This document shows, piece after piece, positions 49,001 to 59,515 of a stretch of 64,000 nt of DNA. The translations under genes were made by a program, and so were the position numbers. The notes under the pieces were generated by a model. That model ran no database searches. It had not been told where the DNA came from and saw only the letters and a list, made by a program, of their open reading frames with translations. Position 1 is the first letter of the stretch. Each line of letters opens with the position of its first letter. The stretch covers positions 1-64,000 of the forward strand of contig WOZO01000041.1 of assembly GCA_011620315.1 (NCBI GenBank). The letters are read 5' to 3'. Source of the DNA: Sideroxydans sp. (lineage in GTDB: Bacteria > Pseudomonadota > Gammaproteobacteria > Burkholderiales > Gallionellaceae).

Positions 49001-49502
49001 CGACATGCTCAACGCCGCCATCAAATCGCTCAAGTCCGGCAAGGAACCCGACATGGCGCACCCGCTAGGCGTCACCACCGAGATCAACCTGCATACCCCC
49101 GCCCTGCTGCCGGACGAATATTGCGGCGACATCCACCAACGCCTAGTCATCTACAAACGACTCGCCAACTGCGAATCGCAACAAGACATGGACGACATGC
49201 AACAGGAACTCATCGACCGTTTCGGCCTACTACCCGAACCCGCACAGACCCTGTTCGACTGCCACCGCCTGCGCATCCTCGCCAAGCCTCTGGGCATCAG
49301 CAAAGTAGATGCCTCAAGCGAAGCGATCCAGATCCAGTTCGTCCCCGAACCGCCCATCGACCCGATGAAGATCATCACCATGATCCAGAGCAAACGCCAT
49401 ATCAAGATGGCCGGCCAGGACAAGCTGCGGATCGAGTTGAAGTATGGGGAGTTGAAGCAAAGGGTGTTGGCGATTGTGAATTTCTTCAAGGAATTAAGTT
49501 AG
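46098..49502 (+). CDS. mfd: Transcription-repair coupling factor Mfd
   Basis: 1134 aa. UvrB-like N-terminus, CarD/RID region, GDVGFGKTEVALRAAF, DEEHRFGVQQKERLK, TRCF C-terminus. Confidence 0.97.
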   Translation: MLFASPHTRPRYANLVGSSDALGIAQLAKQQAPLVVIAANALEAQRLVDEIPFFDPALKVHLLPDWETLPYDHFSPHQDLISERLATLHHIRTQAFDVVIVPITTALYPLPPVSYMAAYTFFLKKGEALAIDAFREQMTLAGYTHVQQVLTPGEYCVRGGLIDLFPMGSMLPFRIDLFDDEIETIATFDVDTQRTLYPVPEIRLLPAREFPMDEKGQATFRQNFRERFEGDPSKSRIYKDVSKGIAPAGIEYYLPLFFEQTANLFDYLPNDATLCLHHDVTAAIQQFAQDTASRYKLLRGDPQHPLLETKELFMDGEQFFIRAKEFGRIDIATDESGASLTRCPTAAIPNIAVDRRAEIPTQKFADFIRDYEGRVLLLADSLGRREIMSNYLEEYGLAPVVCEDYAAFLVGQEKFMLGVATIGNGFLLSDEHIAIVTESELYATPSRARISRTAKKSNVEGMLRDLSELKPGDPVVHEQHGIARYHGLVNLDMGEGENEFLLLEYADEAKLYVPVSQLHVIGRYSGGAPETAPLHKLGSGAWDKAKRRAMQQVRDTAAELLNIYAQRALRKGHAFKFNYHDYEAFAAGFGFGETADQAAAIEAVILDLQSGKPMDRLICGDVGFGKTEVALRAAFIAAMEGKQVAVLAPTTLLVEQHFQNFSNRFADFPIKLAELSRFRSTKETTQALKDLADGKLDIVIGTHKLIQKDVKFHNLGLVILDEEHRFGVQQKERLKALRAEVDVLTLTATPIPRTLAMSLEGLRDFSVIATAPQRRLSIKTFVSNYSAGVIREAVLRELKRGGQVYFLHNEVDTMPNMLEKLTELLPEARIRMAHGQMGERELEAVMRDFTHQRFNVLLCSTIIETGIDVPTANTIIMNRADRFGLAQLHQLRGRVGRSHHQAYAYLLVDSMDGLTAQAKKRLEAIQAMEQLGSGFYLAMHDLEIRGAGEVLGESQSGEMQEIGFSLYNDMLNAAIKSLKSGKEPDMAHPLGVTTEINLHTPALLPDEYCGDIHQRLVIYKRLANCESQQDMDDMQQELIDRFGLLPEPAQTLFDCHRLRILAKPLGISKVDASSEAIQIQFVPEPPIDPMKIITMIQSKRHIKMAGQDKLRIELKYGELKQRVLAIVNFFKELS

Positions 49503-49577
49503 ACGAAACAGCATAGCGTGTGACCTGCCCTTTCTGCGCTACAATCTTGCCATCGTCAATAAACTCAACCATTCTCC

Positions 49578-50552
49578 ATGGCCATCTCTCGATGCAACAA
49601 ATGCGGCACGGTCACAGAGCTTGAACGTAAACTGATAGGCACGAACCAAAGTTGCATTCGATGCGAGACCCCCAATCCGGTCTACGACACTGTCGTATTC
49701 ATCAACAAAGTGCTGGAACAGTTCTTCGCACAAAGAACCGAACTTACTGCACTCAGGGCAAATACTTCGCAATCCCAGGAAACGTCGCACCCCATGAGCA
49801 GCGTCGACATTCACAATTCAGACTGGTTGACTCTGGAGTCGCAGCACCTGCCCGTCATCGACTGGTTTAAATCAAAAAGTATCGCAGCCACTATTAACGC
49901 AGGGGCTGTGGACACAAGCGGATTTTTTGACGAAGCCGCTGTCGCCATTGGCTCAGACTACGAATTGCTGGGTGAATTCTGCGAGCGGATCCGTTATGCC
50001 CAGCAAAAGGAATACAACAGCGCCCTGATCCATCTGGACAAGAAATCCATCGATGACGTAAAGGCGCTTGAGTCCTTCGCTCGCAAGCTCCACGAGTATT
50101 CCCTTGTCGCCCGCTTCTTCAACAACAAGGAGGAGAAGAACCTTCGCCTGATCCTGCAAAATGCTCCAGCTGTCCGCCGTTTCTTTGCCGGGGAATGGCT
50201 TGAGTGGTTCGCACTGATGACCAGCGTGAGGATCTTCAATGAACGCAACGCGGAATACGCCTGCGCCCGCAATCTCATACTTTCTTATCCCCAGAACGAA
50301 AAACGGGAACTGGACGTATTCTTCCTGATCAACAAGACCAAGCCTTTATATATCGAGTGCAAGACCGGCGAATTCCGGCAAGACCTAGATAAATATATAT
50401 CTCTCAAAAAGAAGCTGAACATCGAGCAAAAATATTTCATCCTTTGCGTGTCAGACCTCGACCCAGAGCAAGGCAAAGGACTGAGTGCGATGCATGGCCT
50501 GACCTTCGTCAACGTGCAGACGCTAGAACAACACCTCTCAACACTGGTCTGA
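49578..50552 (+). CDS. Zinc-ribbon plus PD-(D/E)XK nuclease-like (DUF1887/Card1-type) protein
   Basis: 324 aa. CNKCGT...CIRCETPNP at N-terminus; C-terminal GEWLEWF...KRELDVFFLINKTKPLYIECKTG. Confidence 0.7.
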   Translation: MAISRCNKCGTVTELERKLIGTNQSCIRCETPNPVYDTVVFINKVLEQFFAQRTELTALRANTSQSQETSHPMSSVDIHNSDWLTLESQHLPVIDWFKSKSIAATINAGAVDTSGFFDEAAVAIGSDYELLGEFCERIRYAQQKEYNSALIHLDKKSIDDVKALESFARKLHEYSLVARFFNNKEEKNLRLILQNAPAVRRFFAGEWLEWFALMTSVRIFNERNAEYACARNLILSYPQNEKRELDVFFLINKTKPLYIECKTGEFRQDLDKYISLKKKLNIEQKYFILCVSDLDPEQGKGLSAMHGLTFVNVQTLEQHLSTLV

Positions 50553-50771
50553 CTCTAGGCGCAGACCATAGGCACCATAACCGGAATATGCAGCGCCGCT
50601 GCGACACTGACCACCACCGCTTTCATACCGCAAGCGCTGAAGGTATGGCACACGCGACACACCGCAGACATCTCGCTGGGATGTATGCCATGTTCACGTG
50701 ATAAAGATACGCTTCGGCTAGACGGGTTTTATTCCATATCCCGCACAGGGAAAACGGAATAGATCGGCACG

Positions 50772-51728
50772 TTACTTCTTCCCGTGCTTCCCCCACCACT
50801 CCCGCCGCTGCTGCTTGTCCATGAACGTCCAAGCCAGCAAGCGACTCTTCTTCTGCCCTTGCGCCATCTCGATGGTGCGGCTGTCTGACGCGCCGGCTTG
50901 TTTCAAGGCGCTGTAGGCCTGCGGCAGGCTGGTGGATTTTGAGATCAATGTGGTGAACCACAGGCAGTGTTCGCCACCGCTTGCGCTCTCTTCGATCATG
51001 CGGGTGACGAAGGCTTCTTCGCCGCCTTCGCAACACAGCTCCATGCTTTGTCCGCCGAAGTTCAGCACCGGCTTCTTGTGTTTGTTATGTTCCTTGCCGA
51101 GGTTCTGCCATTTGCGCTGCGCGCATTTTCTGGCTTCGGCGAGCGAGGCGTGGAAGGGCGGGTTGCTCAGGGTGATGGCGAAGTATTCGTCGGCATAGGT
51201 GACGCCGGAGAAGATGTCGATGCTGGAGGGTTGCAGGCGCAATTCGATGGCGTCGTTCAGGTCGTTCGCTGCGACGATGTGTTGCGCATTGCCCAGCGCG
51301 ACCTCGTCGATGTCGGTACCGACAAAGTGCCAGCCGTAGGCGGCGTGGCCGATGAGCGGGTAGATGCAGTTCGCGCCCACCCCGATGTCGAATACGCGCA
51401 CCGCTTCGCCACGCGGGATGTTGCCGCCGTTGCTCTCGGCCAGAAGGTCGGCGAGGTAGTGGAGGTAGTCGGCGCGGCCGGGGATGGGCGGGCACAGGTA
51501 TTGGTCGGGGATGTCCCATTCCTTGATTTGGTAATACTGTTTCAGCAGGGCGCGGTTGAGCGCTTTCACCGCTGCCGGATCGGCGAAGTCTATCGACTCG
51601 TTACCGTAGACATTCACGGATACATACGTTGCCAGCTCGGGACTGGTCTTGATGAGCTGCGCGAAGTCGTATCGCTCCCGGTGCAGATTGCGCGGGTGCA
51701 GATTGGTTTTGGTCGGGACTTGAGTCAT
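50772..51728 (-). CDS. rlmF: 23S rRNA (adenine(1618)-N(6))-methyltransferase RlmF
   Basis: Start at [49 protein letters not shown]. The track ORF begins at 51809. Confidence 0.94.
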
Positions 51729-51822
51729 GGCTGGAATGGCTGGCGAGCGTGAGGCTGAGGCGCGCCATTCTAAACAATATGGGCAGTGCGGCGCGTCATT
51801 TCCGCGCACGCAGCTTGTGGCG

Positions 51823-55507: not shown

Positions 55508-58500
55508 ATGACGCAAGAGATCAGCACCGAAGTCCTCCTCGAAAAATACGCGGAAGCCGACGAGAACACGGTGCAGGACGTGCGCCGCCGCGTGGCGCGC
55601 GGACTGGCGCAGGCCGAGAAGCCGGACCAGCGCGCGCAATGGGAAGAGACCTTCTTCCAAGCTCAAGAAAATGGTTTCGTTCCCGCCGGCCGCATCAACT
55701 CCGCCGCCGGACTCAACATGCAGGCCACGCTGATCAACTGTTTCGTGCAACCGGTGGGCGACGCCATCTCCGGCTTCAGCGACGGTCGACCCGGCATCTA
55801 CGACGCGCTGCAGCAGGCCGCCGAGACCATGCGCCGTGGCGGCGGTGTGGGCTACGACTTCTCCGCGATCCGCCCCGAAGGCGCGCACGTCAAAGGCACC
55901 AACTCGCGCGCTTCCGGCCCCATTTCCTACATGCGCGTGTTCGACCGTTCCTGCGAGACGGTTGAGTCTGCCGGCGCGCGGCGCGGTGCGCAGATGGGCG
56001 TGCTGCGCTGCGACCATCCCGACATCGAAAGATTCATCAGCGCCAAGGACAAGGGCGACCTGCGCAACTTCAACATCTCGGTCGGCGTCACCGACGCGTT
56101 GATGCGGGCGGTGGAGAAGGACGAGGAATTCGAGCTGGTGCACGCCGCCGAACCCTCCGCTGCCCTCAAGGAAGCCGGTGCCACGCGGCGTGCCGACGGC
56201 AAGTGGGTGTATCGCAAAGTGCGCGCCACCGACCTGTGGAAACAGATCATCGAAAGCACCTACGACCATGCCGAACCGGGCGTGCTGTTCATCGACCTGA
56301 TGAACCGCGACAACAACCTGTCGTATTGCGAAGTGATCGAAGCGACCAACCCGTGCGTTACGGCGGATGCCTGGGTGATGACACGCGACGGCGCGCGACA
56401 AGTGCGCGATCTGATCGGCCAGTCCTTCGAAGCTGTCGTAAACGGCAAGTGCTACCCGACCGAATCGCAGGGCTTCTTCCTCACCGGCCACAAACCGGTG
56501 CTGCGCCTGAACACCCGCGAAGGCCATAGCCTGCGCCTGACCGCCGACCATCAAGTACTGCGCGTATCCAGAATGACACGCTACGTGCGCGAAACGGAAT
56601 GGGTCAAAGCGGGAGAACTGATATCCGGTGACCAAGTCGTGCTGCACGACCATCGCGCCCCGCATACCTGGGGCGGTACACACACCGAAGCCGAGGGGTA
56701 TCTGATCGGCCTGCTGATCGGCGATGGCACACTGAAATCAGACAAGGCCGTGCTGAGCGTATGGGATGCAGCCGCGCTGAAACAAGCCAACGGTGAAGAC
56801 ATACAACCATCGAACGCTATCGCCAGCGTGATGCTGGCGGCAGCGCAGGCCGCACGCACACTGCCGCATCGTGCCGACTTTAATGGCTGGCAGCGACCAG
56901 TAGACGGACGCGGCGAATTCAGGCTGGCGACAGGCGCATTGCGTTCGCTGGCGTTGCAACTGGGGCTGTCGCCCGGCAACAAACGCTTCACGCCCGCGAT
57001 GGAGAATGCCTCATCCGATTTCTACCGGGGCGCATTGCGCGGCATGTTCGACGCCGATGGCTCCGTGCAAGGAACGCAGGAAAACGAGCTTTGTCAAAGA
57101 CAAAGCGAGTTTCGGCGCAGCCACAAAGGCATCAGCGTCCGCCTGACGCAGACCGACCTCGGAAACCTGCAAACCGTGCAGCGCATGCTGCAACGGCTAG
57201 GCATCGTGTCGACCATCTATCAGGATCGCCGCCCGGCAGGCATGAAGCGATTGCCGGACGGCAAAGGCAGCGCGAAAGAATATGCCTGCCAGGCGCTGCA
57301 CGAACTCATCATCAGCGGCGACAACCTCGCGCGCTACGCGGAACGCATCGGCTTTGCAGACAGCGACAAGATGGACAAGCTCAGCGTTTCTCTGGCGAGC
57401 TATAAGCGCAAGCAGAATGCGGAACGCTTCGTCGCCACCGTCGAATCACTGGAAGAGGATGGCGAGGAAGATGTGTATGACGTGACCGTGGCCGAGGTGC
57501 ATGCTTTCGATGCCAACGGTTTGTACGTGCACAACTGCGCCGAGCAACCCCTCCCACCCTACGGCTGCTGCTGCCTCGGTTCCATCGACCTGACGCGCAT
57601 GGTGAAAGCGCCATTCTCCAATCAGGCAGGTTTCAATCACGAGCCGTTCAAGCAACTGGTGCGCACCTCGGTGCGCATGTTGGACAACGTACTGGACGTG
57701 ACCGCATGGCCGTTGCCGGAGCAGCAGCAGGAGGCGCGCAGCAAGCGCCGTGTCGGTCTGGGTTTCACCGGATTGGGCGATGCGCTGGCGATGTTGGGCC
57801 TGCGTTACGACACTGGCGAGGCGCGCGCCTTCGCCGCCGACATCACGCGCATCATGCGCGACGAGGCCTATTCCGCCTCGGTGGAACTGGCGCAGGAGCG
57901 CGGCAAGTTCCCGCTGCTGGATGCGGGGCAATACTTGGCTGCGCCGCGCTTCGCCTCGCGCCTGCCGGACGAGTTGAAAGGCAAGATACGCAAGCACGGC
58001 ATCCGCAATAGCCACCTGCTTTCCATCGCGCCCACCGGCACCATCTCGCTGGCCTTCGCCGACAACGCTTCGAACGGCATCGAGCCGCCCTTCTCCTGGT
58101 TCTACACGCGCAAGAAGCGCATGCCGGACGGCACCACCAAGGACTATTCGGTGGAAGACCACGCCTGGCGTCTGTACAAGAAACTGGGCGGCGACACTAA
58201 CAAACTGCCGGGGTCGTTCGTCACTGCGCTGGAGATCAGTGCCATCGACCACATGAAGATGGTGGCCGCCGTCGCGCCGTTCATCGACACCTCGATCAGC
58301 AAGACGGTGAACGTGCCGGCCGACTATCCCTACGAGGATTTCAAGGACCTGTACACCGAAGCATGGAAGGCCGGACTGAAAGGTCTGGCGACCTATCGCC
58401 CGAACAGCGTTCTGGGCTCGGTGCTGTCGGTCACGCCGGAGCCGAAAACGGACGAACAACCGCAGGATTTCGTGTTCGACCAGGACAGGCGCATCGAACT

Positions 58501-59515
58501 GGAAGCCGCGCCCACGCCGGCGCTGGCCTCCTTGCGCTGGCCGGGCCGCCCCAAGTTGCCCGCCGGCAGCGAAGGCTGGGTATCGCAGGTGGTGAAACAT
58601 CCGCTGGGCAGCTTCGTGGCCTTCGTTTCGCACACCTCGAACGGCTGCAACCATCCGTTCGAAGTCTGGGTGAACGGCTCCGAGCAGCCGCGCGGACTCG
58701 GCGCGCTTGCGAAGTCGCTGTCGATGGACATGCGCACGCGCGACCCGGTGTGGATACGCATGAAGCTGGAGATGCTGACCAAGACCGCGGGCGACGACGC
58801 CTTCGACATGCCGATGCCGCCCGACGGCGAGATGAAGCGCATGCCCAGCCTGGTCGCCGCGTTCGCGCACCTGCTGAAATACCGCATCGAGGCGCTGGGC
58901 GCGCTGGAGATCACCGAAGGCGTGACCACGCCGATGATGGACGCGCTGTTCGCAAAGAAGGAACCGAAGACCGGCACCGACGGCACGATGAGCTGGACCG
59001 TGGACATCGCCAACGCCGGCACCGGCGACGACTTCGTGCTGGGCCTGAAGGAACTGGTGCTGCCCGACGGCCAGCGCCGTCCCTACTCGATGTGGCTGTC
59101 CGGCGTGTATCCGCGCGCACTGGACGGGCTGTGCAAGGTGCTCAGTCTGGACATGCGCGTGATCGACCCGGCCTGGATCGGCATGAAGCTGCGCAAGCTG
59201 CTCAACTTCGGCGAACCGCTGGGCGACTTCATGGCGCGCGTGCCGGGCGGCATGAAGATGGAGAGCTACCCCTCGACGGTGTCGTACGTCGCCAAGCTCA
59301 TCATCCACCGCTACGCCATGCTCGGCATCCTCGACGAACACGGCTATCCGGTGCAGCAGATGGGCGTGCTGGAAATCCCCGAAGGGCAGATCAAACCCAC
59401 CACCGTCAAACCGATGACCGGCAAGCACTGCAAGGAATGCGGCAACGCCACGCTGATCAAGAAGGACGGCTGCGAGTTCTGCACCAGTTGCGGCGCGATC
59501 GGCGCGTGCGGCTAA
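55508..59515 (+). CDS. nrdJ: Adenosylcobalamin-dependent (class II) ribonucleoside-diphosphate reductase precursor, intein-containing
   Basis: 1335 aa. [68 protein letters not shown]; duplicated TSCPD-like C-terminal repeats and a CxxC..CxxC tail. Confidence 0.93.
56354..57535 (+). other. Intein (394 aa) with LAGLIDADG homing endonuclease domain, in frame within RNR
   Basis: Starts [13 protein letters not shown], ends DANGLYVHN followed by +1 Cys. Hint blocks ([32 protein letters not shown]) and two DOD motifs ([24 protein letters not shown]). Interrupts [12 protein letters not shown]. Confidence 0.95.
57082..57112. repeat. Small imperfect palindrome inside the intein endonuclease domain
   Basis: aaacgagctttgtc-aaa-gacaaagcgagttt, 12 of 14 positions pair. 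Encodes [10 protein letters not shown] in frame. Confidence 0.7.

Follow-up and report, generated by a model that had tools for sequence, protein, structure and literature searches.

A predicted Card1/Can2-type nuclease with a zinc ribbon apparently in place of the CARF domain, encoded by a single-gene insert beside mfd in Sideroxydans

We analyzed a window of 64,000 nucleotides from Sideroxydans sp. (contig WOZO01000041.1), in which an open reading frame (ORF) at 49578-50552 (+), exactly as described in the first-pass annotation of this DNA, starts with ATG and encodes a protein of 324 amino acids. It lies 75 bp downstream of the mfd ORF (1134 amino acids), on the same strand, and an rlmF-like gene at 50772-51809 is convergent with it. 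The gene is present as a single copy in the genome (2.95 Mb). The family alignment comprised 13 intact full-length members, the window protein included; in a nine-member alignment, full-length identity to the window protein ranged from 40 to 81%, and farther homologs were more divergent. Pairwise counts between the window gene and the 81% homolog gave a pS of 0.70 versus a pN of 0.10, and according to pairwise pN the constraint was strongest at residues 196-324 and 86-195. Taken together, these comparisons indicate that this is a real gene under purifying selection. Further along the window, an intein containing a LAGLIDADG domain (PF14890, 4.6e-11; PF14528, 1.6e-21) lies within the ribonucleotide reductase gene at 55508-59515; this intein is missing from shorter ribonucleotide reductases at two other loci (L017 and L026, 1011 and 1014 aa versus 1335 aa).

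In close relatives, the site does not contain the nuclease gene and reads mfd-SemiSWEET-rlmF. Using blastn against these relatives (L110-L115, in which the mfd fragment shares at most 92% DNA identity), we observed that homology breaks off at 49486-49495 in mfd and returns at 50586 or at 50772-50773. The segment missing from them (49496-50585, no strand assigned) represents the insertion of one gene, with mfd on one side and SemiSWEET/rlmF on the other. Next to it, at 50586-50698 (+), alignment and Pfam identified what is left of a SemiSWEET (PQ-loop/MtN3) transporter gene, both ends of which are missing; L121 and other relatives retain an intact copy between mfd and rlmF (PF04193, 9.7e-10 in L121). 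The empty sites in relatives and the adjoining SemiSWEET remnant thus identify the nuclease gene as a lone insert of about 1.1 kb. The transporter gene that it adjoins is broken. Neither a target-site duplication at the insert edges nor an integrase at the locus was seen. We also considered the 113 bp at 50586-50698 as a dispersed RNA element, which was rejected on a negative Rfam search and on the alignment and Pfam evidence for a decayed SemiSWEET gene; roughly half of the genus has one related sequence per genome, at a site that varies.

Within the genus, 3 of 34 genomes had the nuclease gene, one copy being broken; within the order, it was found in 9 of 399 genomes (about 2%), two of these having no intact gene; the broken copies are those of G005 and G359. 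A phage or plasmid origin was rejected, with no homolog in phage, plasmid or viral-contig collections. The distribution is patchy and horizontally mobile, as expected of an anti-phage defence gene. Overall, these sequence comparisons suggest that the gene is most likely accessory, horizontally mobile and stand-alone.

In the AlphaFold2 model of the protein (mean pLDDT 85.9, pTM 0.72), strands and helices follow each other as a zinc ribbon, a long helix, an alpha/beta accessory region and a PD-(D/E)XK core, all encoded on the forward strand. The ribbon, C6xxC9...C26xxC29, occupies residues 1-37 (49578-49688), which are beta-rich in the model; its four cysteines are invariant in the 13 members, and Zn_ribbon_8 gave weak matches in 7 of 9 members (best E 0.001), consistent with the CxxC/CxxC zinc ribbon that had been proposed for the N-terminus. 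The helix, a predicted coiled coil, covers residues 38-63 (49689-49766) and is followed by a variable, low-confidence linker at residues 64-86 (49767-49835), where constraint is weakest and pN is the highest of the whole protein; pLDDT falls below 50 at residues 63-76. The accessory helix/strand region comprises residues 87-196 (49836-50165), as delimited by hhalign, Foldseek and a conserved motif, and the nuclease domain residues 197-324 (50166-50549).

The PADLOC CARF_PDDEXK models matched the protein with an E-value of 1.4e-11, the earliest match starting at residue 131. Pfam returned the Card1-like endonuclease PF09002 (E=1.5e-4) at 21.8 bits, which is below the curated cut-off of 26.4 bits, a cut-off passed by the homolog in genome G127; NCBIfam gave no match. 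When the nine-member profile was compared with solved structures, Can2 (7bdv) was recovered at 3.2e-5 and VC1899 (1xmx) at 4.7e-4. The predicted structure contains the restriction-endonuclease fold whose absence, by the first-pass annotation, would have spoken against a nuclease, and Foldseek against the PDB gave 1xmx (1e-11), Cdn1 (3.6e-9), Can2 (5.6e-8) and Card1 (7.1e-7); all 22 matches at E ≤1e-3 belong to the Card1/Can2 family, with alignments to 1xmx and 7bdv of about 245 columns. The viral fold library gave weak general nuclease matches only. The C-terminal GEWLEWF...ELDVFF...YIECKTG, from which the first-pass annotation had deduced a nuclease of the Card1/DUF1887 type, is present, and its catalytic residues E244 (50307-50309), D246 (50313-50315), E260 (50355-50357) and K262 (50361-50363), spanning 50307-50363 (+), are invariant in all 13 members, as is the helical E209 (50202-50204, +) of GxW(L/M)EW. 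The same ExD...ExK pattern is formed in Can1 by Glu541/Asp543/Glu560/Lys562 (PMC6981274), and E276/D278 of SthCan2 are the counterpart of the ExD pattern (PMC7969007). PADLOC, profile and Foldseek agree, and the assignment of the C-terminal third to the Card1/Can2 (DUF1887) kind of nuclease is strong. The domain is predicted to be a metal-dependent nuclease, and the protein is very probably catalytically competent.

Between the ribbon and the nuclease, the conserved region 87-193 had been overlooked at first pass. W96, D112, G115, F117 and D118 are invariant in the 13 members, the last four within the motif DTxGFFDExA (D112-T-x-G115-F-F117-D118-E). Accessory helices and strands are described for Can2 and VC1899 (PMC7969007). 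From alignment and model, the region at 87-196 appears to be the counterpart of this extra motif preceding the nuclease.

Card1/Can2 nucleases are regarded as type III CRISPR effectors activated by cyclic oligoadenylate (cOA), and Can2 dimerises via its CARF domain, to which cA4 binds. We aligned the family by hhalign with 17 PF09002 proteins of the same order, most of which appear to be CARF-type from their length and sequence. Residues 92-324 aligned with CARF-type positions 169-398 (probability 98%, E=1.4e-13); therefore, everything downstream of CARF, accessory helices and strands included, is common to both, and the zinc ribbon and coiled coil occupy the place of the CARF sensor. No Pfam and no PADLOC match was obtained ahead of residue 131. 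An N-terminal CARF domain was not found, since the alignment begins at residue 92 and residues 1-63 are ribbon and helix, in agreement with the absence of CARF asserted earlier. Sequence and model thus indicate a protein in which CARF is replaced by a zinc ribbon (1-37), a long helix (38-63) and a disordered linker, and which would act like Card1/Can2 in its catalytic half while lacking the CARF domain expected of a member of that family.

The ribbon-helix module (residues 1-73) is homologous to the N-termini of three other proteins, at L077, L078 and L079 (E 9e-9 to 6e-11), which are apparent membrane coiled-coil proteins from the same class. These carry an apparent transmembrane helix and a coiled coil where the window protein has the nuclease, in keeping with the ribbon-coil being, as far as homology tells, a modular head. 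The gene directly after each of them (L077 8947-10455, L078 8755-9970, L079 3465-5308) encodes a BLUF-like blue-light sensor, assigned by Pfam for L077 and by sequence similarity for L078 and L079; the L078 ribbon protein is interrupted by a frame break.

When the nuclease part was used to build a tree, the proteins without CARF grouped together on a long branch with a FastTree support of 1.000; this split from the other proteins is strong, though not entirely certain, because the alignment is short and the support is that of FastTree. Card1-type nucleases having neither CARF nor ribbon were also observed (L075 2599-3600, L035, L038 and L045). Their nuclease domains fall inside the same CARF-less clade as the window protein, of which they form a second, more divergent branch, but they have other short N-termini in place of the zinc ribbon and a more divergent accessory region. 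One genome (G127, at L064, G127:C1:2203876-2204238) encodes, in addition to the zinc-ribbon nuclease, a separate 600-aa Card1-type protein whose N-terminal region differs and is longer. In the literature searched, from which subscription papers were largely absent, we found no account of a CARF-less zinc-ribbon Card1 architecture.

The neighbours of the gene change by genus and include hda, a DUF3418 helicase, HlyIII, gyrB, uvrA, an AraC regulator and DNA-alkylation repair genes, among others. Across the loci examined, there was no conserved partner gene, as would suit the stand-alone nature proposed for the protein, and no defence island around the homologs. A CRISPR neighbour within 2 kb was found at a single locus, L071 (10484-18406), where a Cas9 gene, with cas1- and cas2-like ORFs after it, lies 1.8 kb downstream of the zinc-ribbon nuclease; the other loci adjoin housekeeping genes or genes to which no identification was given. 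A convincing Cas10 (E about 1e-24) was detected in two of 14 carrier genomes (G969 and G977), while matches in the other carriers reached at most 33 bits, a level fitting GGDEF proteins, and E. coli, the control, was also matched by the PF22335 model. For most carriers, a dependence on type III CRISPR was rejected, 12 of 14 having no convincing Cas10.

As an overall explanation, we somewhat favor a stand-alone, mobile accessory nuclease with a trigger other than cOA, sensed by the ribbon and coil. Cyclic oligoadenylate is unlikely as the trigger because the CARF receptor domain is absent; a zinc-binding, coil-forming head has taken the place of the alarm-sensing part, so a different alarm is probable. 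Control through the N-terminal module, independently of cOA, is accordingly the part of this explanation that we judge likely from the sequence. The long helix would pair two subunits, as CARF does in Can2, and place two nuclease sites face to face. The ribbon and coil, possibly together with the DTxGFFDE element, may bind a protein or nucleic acid linked to infection or stress, and this binding would open the nucleic-acid cleft of the nuclease. Once activated, the enzyme might nick DNA and/or cut RNA with little sequence specificity, which would halt the mobile element or the infected cell. For an anti-mobile-element role as such, we put the chances at slightly under even: a defence role would fit the patchy distribution and the decay of some copies, but it draws no support from a defence island or a partner gene. 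The more ambitious proposal of a one-gene immune nuclease, in which a Card1/Can2 effector was rewired from CARF to a zinc-ribbon/coil sensing a phage or stress molecule directly, and in which the module common to the membrane proteins is a general plug-in sensor, is tentative and rather doubtful.

Other explanations were weighed against a trigger sensed by the ribbon and coil. The protein could be an orphan under small-molecule control, with the 87-126 element and its DTxGFFDE motif forming a ligand pocket and the ribbon merely joining subunits. The invariance of D112, G115, F117 and D118 would suit such a pocket, as would the case of VC1899, an orphan outside type III CRISPR that is not controlled by cA4 (PMC7969007). 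However, the structure gives no sign of a pocket at 87-126, and the strong Foldseek matches are all Can2-like, in which cA4 sits on CARF and not on the accessory region, making this unlikely. VC1899 is also weakly active in vitro despite its conserved residues (PMC7969007), which could suggest that the window protein descends from Card1 but has lost catalysis and serves a structural or regulatory function; yet the four catalytic residues, whose conservation in homologs had been set as a check at first pass, are invariant across a diverse family, and the nuclease domain is among its most constrained parts, and we consider a dead descendant very improbable.

A toxin-like or selfish single-gene cassette, harming the host or a competitor element and giving the cell no protection, would account for a gene that moves alone into unrelated housekeeping sites, adjoins a broken SemiSWEET gene and decays in some genomes, but it is hard to reconcile with long-term purifying selection, the lack of a conserved antitoxin-like neighbour and the absence from plasmid and phage collections, and seems quite improbable. 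A link to repair had been hinted at from the position beside mfd, 75 bp upstream on the same strand, and a nuclease for DNA repair or transcription-coupled repair partnering Mfd could also be read from one homolog (L007) that is preceded by uvrA and followed by a DNA-alkylation-repair gene. In contrast, nearly every genome of the genus has mfd, compared with 3 of 34 for the nuclease; in G011 and G005 the two genes are not directly adjacent, the site is empty in the closest relatives, and in other genera hda, the DUF3418 helicase, gyrB and others take the place of mfd. Linkage to mfd is therefore confined to the genus, and the repair link was rejected on synteny in the 34 genomes and on unrelated neighbours elsewhere, leaving an Mfd partnership with hardly any probability. 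The first-pass annotation thus identified the domains and the lack of CARF correctly and gave too much weight to mfd; the conserved neighbours that it proposed to look for were not found at these loci.

A CARF-less clade that keeps the catalytic unit and swaps the sensor only would show a Card1/Can2 effector working outside CRISPR. With a small single-gene system, a direct search for the trigger is feasible, and its choice of substrate and its switching can be set against those of Can2 and VC1899. With Can2/Card1 (DUF1887; PF09002; PDB 7bdv, 6wxw, 8q3y), the window protein has in common the PD-(D/E)XK fold, the ExD...ExK residues, the GxWLE helix and the accessory region, but it has no CARF domain, belongs to a separate clade and shows no Cas10 link in 12 of 14 carriers. 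Cdn1 (PDB 9u49, 8z4i), which ranked second among the fold matches with a query TM of 0.56, was solved as a cAn-bound effector and is 13% identical to the window protein. The best fold match is VC1899 of Vibrio cholerae (PDB 1xmx, E 1e-11), which retains the CARF domain that the window protein lacks.
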